Source: Gammaproteobacteria bacterium
GTDB lineage: Bacteria; Pseudomonadota; Gammaproteobacteria; Eutrophobiales; Eutrophobiaceae
Length of the DNA stretch: 52,667 bases
Reading direction: 5' to 3'
Assembly (NCBI GenBank): GCA_030835405.1
Contig: JAURPG010000110.1
Span: forward strand, 1-52,667
Positions 30,532 through 34,091 of the stretch are shown piece after piece. The notes beneath the pieces are model-generated. The model made no database searches. It was not told the origin of the DNA and saw nothing but the letters and a program-made list of their open reading frames with translations. The position numbers were made by a program, and so were the translations under genes. Positions within the stretch are counted from its first letter, which is position 1. Every line of letters starts with the position of its first letter.

Positions 30532-31494
30532 ATGCTATTTAAAAAAAATCAAAATAAAGAACAACAGGCTTTCAGTGTCTGGAAATCTTTAAAATCCGGT
30601 CTGAATAAAACCAGAGATATCCTGTTAAGTGACATTGGCGATTTATTAAGCCTCAACAACCTGGGTACAGATGAATTGCTGGAGGAGCTAGAAACCAGGC
30701 TCTTGCTCGCAGACGTTGGCATTGACGCCACTGAAAAGATAATCAATGGCTTAAAAACAGATATTAAGAAGCAAAGGCCGGATTCTGCCGAGGAAGCATT
30801 AATACTGCTCAAGCAACAGATGATAAACGTTCTTAAGGCGATCGAATCCCCGATAAATTTATCTGTTAGTGCACATAAGCCCTTAACCATATTAGTTATA
30901 GGTGTAAATGGGGCCGGGAAGACCACCACCATTGGCAAACTGACTAATCTTTACAAAAACAGTTTTAAAACCATGATTGCCGCAGGCGACACCTTCCGGG
31001 CTGCAGCAATTGAACAATTAATTGCCTGGGGCGATCGAAATTCTGTGCCTGTGGTGTCAAGAGCACAAGGAGCAGATTCTGCTGCTGTGATTTATGACGC
31101 CTTACAGACGGCGCGGCAACAAAACATTGACCTGTTGATTGCTGATACGGCGGGCAGGCTACAAAACAAGAATAATCTTATTGATGAACTAAAAAAAATA
31201 CGCCGCACAATAACCAAGTTTGATCCTGAGCTTAACGTTATAACCTTACTGATCATTGATGCTGCCACAGGGCAAAATGCGCTGAATCAAGCGGTGCAAT
31301 TTAATTCGGATATAGGAATTGACGGCCTGGTTTTAACAAAACTGGACGGCACCGCAAAAGGTGGAATTATCTTTGCAATCGCTGAAAGTCTTGGCATACC
31401 ATTACATTATATAGGGACCGGCGAATCGATTAATGATATTTCACCTTTTAATGCACAGGATTTTGTCTCCGCTCTTTTATCAATAAAAACATGA
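30532..31494 (+). CDS. ftsY: Signal recognition particle receptor FtsY
   Basis: 320 residues. The long acidic A domain found in E. coli FtsY is absent; after about 40 residues the N domain begins. The G domain shows GVNGAGKTTTIGKL at 124-137, AAGDTFRAAA, ADTAGRLQNK and the TKLDGTAKGG motif. FtsY docks ribosome-SRP complexes at the membrane in a GTP-controlled cycle. The hydrophobic/basic N-terminal stretch (FSVWKSLKSGLNKTRD) may be the membrane-targeting helix. It is first in ftsY-ftsE-ftsX and overlaps ftsE by four bases. Confidence 0.97.
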   Translation: MLFKKNQNKEQQAFSVWKSLKSGLNKTRDILLSDIGDLLSLNNLGTDELLEELETRLLLADVGIDATEKIINGLKTDIKKQRPDSAEEALILLKQQMINVLKAIESPINLSVSAHKPLTILVIGVNGAGKTTTIGKLTNLYKNSFKTMIAAGDTFRAAAIEQLIAWGDRNSVPVVSRAQGADSAAVIYDALQTARQQNIDLLIADTAGRLQNKNNLIDELKKIRRTITKFDPELNVITLLIIDAATGQNALNQAVQFNSDIGIDGLVLTKLDGTAKGGIIFAIAESLGIPLHYIGTGESINDISPFNAQDFVSALLSIKT

Positions 31495-32171
31495 TTCAGT
31501 TTACAGACGTTTCCAAGCGCTACACCTCCGGCAAGGATGCATTAAAAAAGCTGAATTTATTTATTGAACAAGGGGCGATGGTGTTTGTCACCGGACGCTC
31601 CGGGGCAGGAAAAACCACCCTGCTCAGACTAATCGCATTGATAGAGCGACAGTCCCGTGGTCAAATCATTGTCAACAGTCAAAACCTCGAAAGGGTGAGG
31701 GGCAACCGAATTCCCTTGTTCCGAAGAAATATAGGTTTTATGTTCCAGGACCATCGGCTACTAAATGATCGCACTGTCTTCGACAATGTTGCACTGCCTA
31801 TGGTGGTGGCCGGCTATTCATACCAGGACACAAGGAAACGTGTCCACGCAGCATTAGACAAGGTTGGTCTGCTGAAGCTTGAAAAGTCCTATCCACAGGC
31901 ACTTTCCGGCGGAGAACAACAGCGTGTTGGCATTGCCCGGGCAGTTGTACATCGGCCAGCGCTGCTACTGGCAGACGAACCGACCGGGAACCTTGATCCA
32001 GCTCTATCATGGGAAAGCATGAAGTTATTCGAGCAGTTTAATCAGGTTGGTGTAACTGTGCTCATCGCCAGCCATGACCTGGAAATGATAAGACGGTTAA
32101 AAAAACCTATCATAACCTTGAAGGCCGGGCAGCTGCTGACCAAAAACCCGAGGAATGAAACCCGGACGTGA
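31491..32171 (+). CDS. ftsE: Cell division ATP-binding protein FtsE
   Basis: 226 residues. ABC motifs: Walker [10 protein letters not shown] near 36-44, Q-loop FMFQDHRLL, signature LSGGEQQRV, Walker [14 protein letters not shown] and switch IASHD. With FtsX it couples ATP use to activation of septal peptidoglycan amidases. Both junctions are four-base overlaps (ATGA with ftsY, GTGA with ftsX). Confidence 0.97.
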
Positions 32172-33136
32172 ACGTTAAACGAAAACCTGGCTCCGGGCCG
32201 AATAATTCACCAGGCAAAGTCCTCCAGGTCTGGCTGTCCCAACACGCGCGCGCCTTGATGGTGAGCATCGGCCAGTTAAGCAAAAATCCTCTTGGCAACC
32301 TCTTTTCCGTGATGGTAATCGGTATTACGCTAGCGCTACCTGTGGGACTGCATCTGATTATCAGCAATGCTTCCCGGGTCCTGCAAAGCTGGGAAGGTAA
32401 TATTCAAATCGCAGTTTATCTGAAACCGGGAGTCACTGAAGAACGGGCCCAGCAACTTAGCATGGAGCTCGACAACGAAGAGACAATTGAAAGTATCGCA
32501 TTAATTACGAAAGAGATGGCGCTGAATGAATACAAGACGCTGTCCGGGTTTGCCGAGGCACTAGAAGCCCTGGAAGAAAACCCCCTCCCCAATATGTTAA
32601 TTATTAGACCGGACCTGAACTCCCTTTCATCAACGGCCGGAGACGAACTTATTTCACGGCTTGGGTTACTGGATGAGGTTGAATCGGCACAGCTTGACCA
32701 TCAATGGGTAAACCGACTACTGGCTATATTGGGCATCATGAAAACGGGCGTGATCGTTCTTGTTTCATTGTTCTCGATGGCCGTTTTGTTAATTGTGGGG
32801 AATACCATTCGACTTTCCATTTTTAACAAACGCACTGAAATTGAAATAGATAAACTGTTTGGTGCTACCAATGCTTTCATCCAGCGGCCATTTTTGTATT
32901 CTGGGCTTATCTATGGGACAGGGGGCAGCCTGATTGCCTGGTGCCTGGTGTTGTCCTTAACCGAGATCATGCAAGACCCGGTTGGACAGTTGGCATTGTT
33001 ATATGGCAGCGACTTCACCTTGTCAGGGTTAAGATTAAAAGAAGTATTAACCCTTTTTGCATCAGGTGGAGGGCTGGGCCTGCTGGGTTCATGGATTGCC
33101 GTGGGGCGCCACCTCAAAAACACAGAGCCGACATAA
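32168..33136 (+). CDS. ftsX: Cell division membrane protein FtsX
   Basis: 322 residues from a GTG start overlapping the ftsE stop. There is a basic cytoplasmic N-terminus, a first span near 50-68, a periplasmic loop of about 100 residues with the FtsX pattern (IQIAVYLKPGV and LPNMLIIRP), then three further spans near 193-218, 243-266 and 293-312. It transmits FtsE ATPase cycles to periplasmic EnvC-type activators of amidases. The following 100 bp lead to rpoH. Confidence 0.95.
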   Translation: MNVKRKPGSGPNNSPGKVLQVWLSQHARALMVSIGQLSKNPLGNLFSVMVIGITLALPVGLHLIISNASRVLQSWEGNIQIAVYLKPGVTEERAQQLSMELDNEETIESIALITKEMALNEYKTLSGFAEALEALEENPLPNMLIIRPDLNSLSSTAGDELISRLGLLDEVESAQLDHQWVNRLLAILGIMKTGVIVLVSLFSMAVLLIVGNTIRLSIFNKRTEIEIDKLFGATNAFIQRPFLYSGLIYGTGGSLIAWCLVLSLTEIMQDPVGQLALLYGSDFTLSGLRLKEVLTLFASGGGLGLLGSWIAVGRHLKNTEPT

Positions 33137-33190
33137 CCTGCTGATTTAAAACATAAAATCTTCTGCTCCATGCCTGAACTTCCCTCCGAC

Positions 33191-33217
33191 TTGGCACTCT
33201 AACTATCAGAGTGCTAA
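33191..33217. promoter_or_regulatory. CIRCE operator (HrcA binding site) upstream of rpoH
   Basis: The inverted repeat TTGGCACTC - nine bases - GAGTGCTAA differs from the CIRCE consensus (TTAGCACTC-N9-GAGTGCTAA) at one position only. CIRCE is bound by the heat-shock repressor HrcA and is usually placed before groESL or dnaK operons. Here it lies 31 bases before the chosen rpoH start. The match is direct; that HrcA exists in this organism and binds here is inference. Confidence 0.88.
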
Positions 33218-33220
33218 TAT
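33191..33220 (+). promoter_or_regulatory. Probable sigma70-type promoter of rpoH, overlapped by CIRCE
   Basis: TTGGCA (33191-33196, five of six matches to -35) and TAATAT (33215-33220, four of six to -10) are 18 bases apart. Both overlap the CIRCE arms, so bound HrcA would block RNA polymerase. Transcription would begin near 33227, leaving a leader of about 22 bases. Start-site mapping has not been done. Confidence 0.6.
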
Positions 33221-33248
33221 TGGCGTATTCAGAATCATGAGGAACAAC

Positions 33249-34091
33249 ATGAACTTACAATTATCCGTACCTAATCATTCCATTGAGGCCTATATCCAAG
33301 GCGTCAATAGTATACCGGTTTTGAGTGCAGAGCATGAGCAAGCACTATTTGACCGATTTAAAAACCAGGACGATCTAGAGGCTGCAAGGGAGCTTGTGCT
33401 GTCCCATTTGCGCTTTGTGGTAAAAGTCGCCCGTGGGTACAGTGGTTATGGACTGCCCCAGGCCGATTTAATTCAAGAAGGCAATATTGGTTTGATGAAG
33501 GCCGTGAAAAGGTTTGATCCTTCCGTGGGGGTGAGGCTGGTCTCATTTGCGGTGCATTGGATCAGGGCTGAAATTCACGAATATATATTGCGCAACTGGC
33601 GCATTGTGAAGGTTGCCACAACAAAGGCCCAGCGAAAATTATTTTTCAACTTGCGTTCAACAAAGAAACGCCTTGGTTGGTTATCACACGAAGAAGTTCA
33701 GTCTGTTGCTAATGACCTTGGGGTAAAACCCAAAGATGTACTCGAAATGGAAAAGCGAATGAGCGCCTATGACGCATCTTTTGACGGCAAGGAGAATGAT
33801 GATGACAATGATGTTTATGCGCCGGCATTTTTTCTCGAGACTGAGAATGATGGTCCGGAGCAAGCAACTGAGTCAGAGCAAAATGAAGCCCTTATGACAG
33901 AACAATTAGAACAGGCTCTAGAGTCGCTGGACGACAGGAGCAGAAAGATTATTTCCCAAAGATGGCTCAGCTCCAAAAAGCAGACGCTGCATGAACTGGC
34001 TTCAGAGCACGGGGTATCAGCAGAACGCATAAGACAGCTTGAACAAAATGCCATGAAGAAATTACGAAACTCCATGGAGTCGCTACAGTAA
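33249..34091 (+). CDS. rpoH: Heat-shock sigma factor RpoH (sigma-32)
   Basis: 280 residues from the ATG at 33249, preceded by AGGA at a suitable distance; an ATG at 33237 would add four residues and has no such site. Region 2 is seen as [11 protein letters not shown] through [18 protein letters not shown]; the RpoH-specific box QRKLFFNLR lies at 128-136. Region 4 closes the protein with [23 protein letters not shown]. It directs RNA polymerase to heat-shock promoters. The acidic insert between regions 3 and 4 (near 176-205) is longer and more Asp/Glu-rich than I expect. It follows ftsX, as is conserved, but with its own CIRCE-marked promoter. Confidence 0.96.

Follow-up and report, generated by a model that had tools for sequence, protein, structure and literature searches.

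A predicted HrcA operator overlies sigma-E-like and sigma-70-like promoter elements upstream of the heat-shock sigma factor gene rpoH in Gammaproteobacteria

The heat-shock sigma factor gene rpoH was analyzed within a contig stretch of 52,667 nt (from here: the window) from a gammaproteobacterium of the family Eutrophobiaceae (assembly GCA_030835405.1, contig JAURPG010000110.1). The product of the gene passes the RpoH equivalog model TIGR02392 with 409 bits at a cut-off of 323. The ATG at 33249 is the best start codon, with support from homologues, and a GAGG sequence is located 6 bp upstream of it. The genes ftsY, ftsE and ftsX precede rpoH, and the gene order ftsX-rpoH is common to the host genome and Escherichia coli. 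The ftsX reading frame stops at 33136, leaving an intergenic region of 112 bp up to rpoH that contains the promoter and an inverted repeat of the CIRCE type, the predicted operator of the repressor HrcA. The features are compiled in Table 1.

Table 1. Genes and predicted regulatory elements at the rpoH locus, with positions in the window
Feature	Positions	Strand	Basis or remark
ftsY, ftsE, ftsX, upstream of rpoH	30532..33136	+	
GAACTT, predicted sigma-E -35	33176..33181	+	Exact match and position-specific conservation
CIRCE, predicted HrcA operator	33191..33217	+	Left arm 33191-33199, loop 33200-33208, right arm 33209-33217; kept at rpoH in family and class
TTGGCA, sigma-70 -35-like box, same bases as CIRCE left arm	33191..33196	+	TTG in 5/5 genus genomes
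TCTAA, predicted sigma-E -10, inside CIRCE	33198..33202	+	Last two left-arm bases and first three loop bases
TGC-TAATAT, sigma-70 extended -10-like, overlaps CIRCE right arm	33212..33220	+	TANNNT in 65/73 rpoH sites vs 2/28 groESL sites
rpoH (sigma-32), 280 aa	33249..34091	+	TIGR02392 above cut-off; ATG at 33249

The inverted repeat reads TTGGCACTC TAACTATCA GAGTGCTAA and agrees with the consensus TTAGCACTC-N9-GAGTGCTAA at 17 of 18 positions, the single mismatch being an A to G change at position 3. It is separated from the rpoH start codon by 31 bp. When up to three mismatches were allowed, it was the sole match in the window, for which dinucleotide shuffles gave a chance expectation of 0.01. 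At the same threshold, the whole 2.8 Mb genome (136 contigs) yielded two CIRCE sites only, the one at rpoH and a perfect one before groES(L). An earlier reading of this DNA from its letters (from here: the sequence-only reading) had called a CIRCE element with one mismatch at this position, which was borne out. The span of 33191-33220 that it gave holds for the operator as far as 33217, while the end at 33220 takes in the -10 box.

A single hrcA gene was identified in the host genome (G000:C93). Its product matches PF01628 with an E value of 7.7e-68 and possesses both Pfam domains, the C-terminal PF01628 and the DNA-binding PF03444, the latter above its cut-off. The genes grpE and dnaK, named from their translations, follow downstream. 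The perfect CIRCE element before groESL represents the classical HrcA target. No CIRCE element was found upstream of the host hrcA gene (L063, 8879-9000), unlike in other genera of the family, in which the HrcA regulon comprises groESL, rpoH and hrcA itself. Throughout the host genus there are two CIRCE sites per genome, at rpoH and groESL, and the site at hrcA has been lost. Hence, hrcA autoregulation seems to have been lost in the host, with the groESL and rpoH sites retained.

Within the host family, CIRCE was present at rpoH in all 31 testable genomes. These comprise 30 genomes with enough upstream sequence plus G034, in which rpoH is partial and the site lies ~75 bp upstream by coordinates. 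Across the 30 genomes, the 18 arm positions are invariant except for the third and the last, while the loop varies freely. The sequence-only reading had proposed looking for hrcA in the genome, for CIRCE at the classical targets and for the repeat in close relatives; the gene is present, the groESL site is perfect and the repeat is kept in every relative in which it could be assessed.

The operator shares bases with two boxes resembling a sigma-70 promoter. A spacer of 18 bp separates TTGGCA from TAATAT (33215-33220), the latter is preceded by TG, and the pair reaches 9 of 12 matches; since 0.4 such matches are expected in 201 bp, this is weak evidence when taken alone. The boxes overlapping the arms were already pointed out in the sequence-only reading, and they are there, although their score lies near chance. 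The right arm at rpoH sites itself forms TGC-TAAAAT or TAATAT (TANNNT in 65/73). In contrast, groESL sites have a TTGACA / CTATA(T) promoter immediately upstream of CIRCE, and TANNNT follows the right arm in 2 of 28 of them. This difference is also seen in the host, where the groESL promoter is located just upstream of CIRCE whereas at rpoH the operator itself holds promoter elements. The CIRCE element at hrcA is flanked by TTTGCACTC...GAGTGCTAAATT. Because the architecture differs at each target, the operator appears fitted to different promoters at rpoH, groESL and hrcA, which argues for a function at each of them. The operator is the same as in the groESL/dnaK HrcA-CIRCE systems of the Bacillus subtilis type, of which the host also has the classical groESL instance. 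The TTA-to-TTG change in the left arm is not claimed here as an rpoH-specific improvement of the -35 box, as the same G occurs in 5 of 28 groESL sites.

Upstream of the operator and reaching into it, the sequence GAACTT-N16-TCTNA is matched exactly at 33176-33202. When the rpoH upstream regions of the family were aligned on CIRCE, a conserved GGAACTT was found to end 9-10 bp before the element, and TAA opens the loop. Among 73 rpoH sites from the whole class, GAACTT (at least 5/6 matching) was located 25 times at offset -15 and 8 times at offset -16 (33/73), compared with 0-2 times at each other offset. An exact GAAC at the fixed offset was present at 42 of the 73 rpoH sites but at none of 28 groESL sites, and the joint match of GAACTT (at least 5/6) and TCnnA at 30 of 73. 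The host genome encodes both RpoE (TIGR02939, 296 bits, cut-off 236) and RseA (PF03872, 61 bits, cut-off 24), and the sequence GAACTA-N16-TCTGA, with the same N16 spacing as at rpoH, is located before its rpoE gene. A scan of the host genome for GAACTTN{15,16}TCTNA gave 9 matches versus 16 for the reversed control, so that the motif by itself is not significant genome-wide and the sigma-E assignment rests on its position-specific conservation instead. On that basis, GAACTT-N16-TCTAA at rpoH looks like the form of a sigma-E promoter. The promoter proposed in the sequence-only reading consequently stands with regard to its sigma-70-like boxes but not as a sigma-70 promoter alone, given a conserved, predicted sigma-E -35 box 15-16 bp before CIRCE and its predicted -10 box within it. 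As predicted from these elements, three regulators rather than two converge at the rpoH site.

In E. coli, the rpoH promoter P3 is dependent on sigma-E. It reads GAACTTGTGGATAAAATCACGGTCTGA, corresponding to GAACTT-N16-TCTGA, and resembles the host sequence in its 16 bp spacer and in its position downstream of ftsX. The -35 box of P3 begins 120 bp from the ATG, compared with 73 bp in the host, and unlike in the host there is no CIRCE element at P3. E. coli served as the control of the hrcA search, and no HrcA match was obtained.

To assess the distribution, 133 genomes were sampled, about one per family of the GTDB class Gammaproteobacteria (former Betaproteobacteria included), 121 of which had rpoH. 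CIRCE was found at rpoH in 68 of 88 genomes with hrcA versus 5 of 33 without it (Fisher p = 5e-10), counts that do not represent independent events and are inflated by kinship, as the genomes within each sample are related, and some of the genomes are incomplete. Twenty families possessing hrcA had no CIRCE at rpoH. As judged from these predicted sites, CIRCE at rpoH is the common state where hrcA exists and recurs in most gammaproteobacterial families that have kept hrcA. The suggestion of the sequence-only reading that a link between HrcA and rpoH is unusual among gammaproteobacteria thus does not hold. Among the named genomes, cultured carriers of the site include Alcanivorax jadensis T9 (L273) and Alcanivorax sp. 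S6407 (L253), and it was also found in a Ketobacter MAG (L268). In the records of Aeromonas, Idiomarina, Salinicola and Halomonas, rpoH mostly has a sigma-E-like box but lacks CIRCE.

Several individual loci stand out. In five genomes with a CIRCE-like rpoH site (G052, G107, G132, G155 and G162; L094, L147, L181, L177 and L214), hrcA was not detected with TIGR00331 and PF01628; one of these genomes is 85% complete and the others are 97-99% complete. Possible readings of the five sites are that they are relics, that the gene was missed or that there is another reader of the site. Upstream of rpoH in G109 (L185), where hrcA was not detected either, GAACTT-N16-TCTTA still has TTGGCACTC inside it, which looks like a decayed CIRCE half-site remaining on a sigma-E promoter. 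G068 has two rpoH genes (L171, L178), one with CIRCE before it and one without. At L087 (G046) and L183 (G087), extra half-sites GAGTGCTAA adjoin the CIRCE element at rpoH, which suggests that the operator is arranged in tandem or has been duplicated.

A CIRCE element before rpoH was predicted in 2004 for Geobacter sulfurreducens, with the sequence TTAGCACTC-N9-GAGTGCTAA at -51; groESL and hrcA-grpE-dnaKJ were assigned CIRCE sites as well (PMC545781). G. sulfurreducens is a deltaproteobacterium and the case is a prediction only; an overlay with sigma-E was not described there, and the remaining delta genomes that the study covered have no such rpoH site in its listing (PMC545781). Our literature search found no report of CIRCE at rpoH in Gammaproteobacteria or of an overlap with sigma-E elements; a paper outside that search, Permina and Gelfand 2003 (J Mol Microbiol Biotechnol 6:174), may list some cases. 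That work reportedly deals with these very regulons in beta-, gamma- and epsilonproteobacteria.

The interpretation that we favor, with a probability of about 0.78, is that a genuine HrcA operator is laid over a composite rpoH promoter with sigma-E and sigma-70 elements, that HrcA would occlude both and that sigma-32 synthesis would need relief from HrcA. Control of rpoH by HrcA, as advanced in the sequence-only reading, remains the best reading, with hrcA present and the repeat kept in all testable relatives. A simpler, two-tier arrangement would have HrcA repress a single sigma-70 promoter of rpoH, with GAACTT being incidental in the host genome. It is in agreement with the presence of the sigma-70 boxes, whose -10 element is the best conserved part of the promoter (65/73), and with the finding that GAACTT is absent before rpoH in three of the five genus members (L021, L028, L083), which nevertheless kept CIRCE, TTGGCA and the -10 box, TTG being present in 5/5. 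We nonetheless consider this arrangement unlikely, because in the host GAACTT is intact at the exact N16 distance to TCTAA and the box is position-specific across many families. With the TTGGCA left arm found in all five genus members, a shift from sigma-E to sigma-70 control is possible for the three that lost GAACTT.

That the site is a relic or a chance palindrome devoid of regulatory effect would be compatible with the mismatch in its left arm and with the lost autoregulatory site of the host hrcA gene, but it is very improbable in view of the near-invariant arms flanking a free loop in 30 family genomes and of the class-wide association with hrcA. Still less credible, and rejected here, is the idea that the repeat acts at the RNA level by forming a hairpin, a thermometer or a terminator within the leader of rpoH: although the repeat is a nearly perfect palindrome near the start codon, the transcription starts predicted from the -10 boxes (~33208-33210 and ~33226-33228) fall inside or after it, so that transcripts would not carry both arms, there is no T-run terminator, the arms are conserved in sequence beyond mere pairing and the site tracks hrcA.

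If the composite promoter is indeed controlled by HrcA, the switch could operate as follows. At low temperature, HrcA on its predicted operator would overlap the sigma-E -10 box and both sigma-70 boxes, so that occlusion of both holoenzymes would be the simplest outcome. Heat, a load of unfolded protein or a shortage of chaperones would then abolish HrcA activity; in other bacteria, HrcA loses activity as GroEL is titrated away. This loss would open rpoH to transcription by sigma-70, and in addition by sigma-E under envelope stress. Sigma-32 would subsequently drive its own regulon, placing HrcA-CIRCE above sigma-32 in series, with sigma-E joining at the same spot. Observed directly were the conserved sequence elements, the genes hrcA, rpoE and rseA in the host genome, and the tendency of the rpoH site to occur together with hrcA. 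From these we infer binding and repression by HrcA, transcription from both promoters and the direction in which the system would respond. As the operator lies over both predicted promoters and recurs in most families that keep HrcA, two stress signals probably meet at one spot before rpoH.

A more far-reaching proposal extends this arrangement to the class. Most HrcA-bearing Gammaproteobacteria might share bases between the rpoH sigma-E promoter and the HrcA operator, forming a three-input switch in which sigma-E would raise sigma-32 only once HrcA is released, an AND gate for envelope and cytoplasmic protein stress; the P3 promoter of the E. coli type would then be a remnant left after the loss of hrcA and CIRCE. 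We regard this extension as tentative, with chances somewhat short of even.

Most of what is understood about the control of sigma-32 synthesis comes from E. coli, a species that lacks HrcA. If most HrcA-bearing Gammaproteobacteria place rpoH under HrcA and sigma-E at a single, overlapping site, the repressor and sigma-factor circuits would be stacked rather than parallel, and the heat-shock circuit of E. coli may be a derived form. This claim can be tested directly in cultured carriers of the site, such as A. jadensis.
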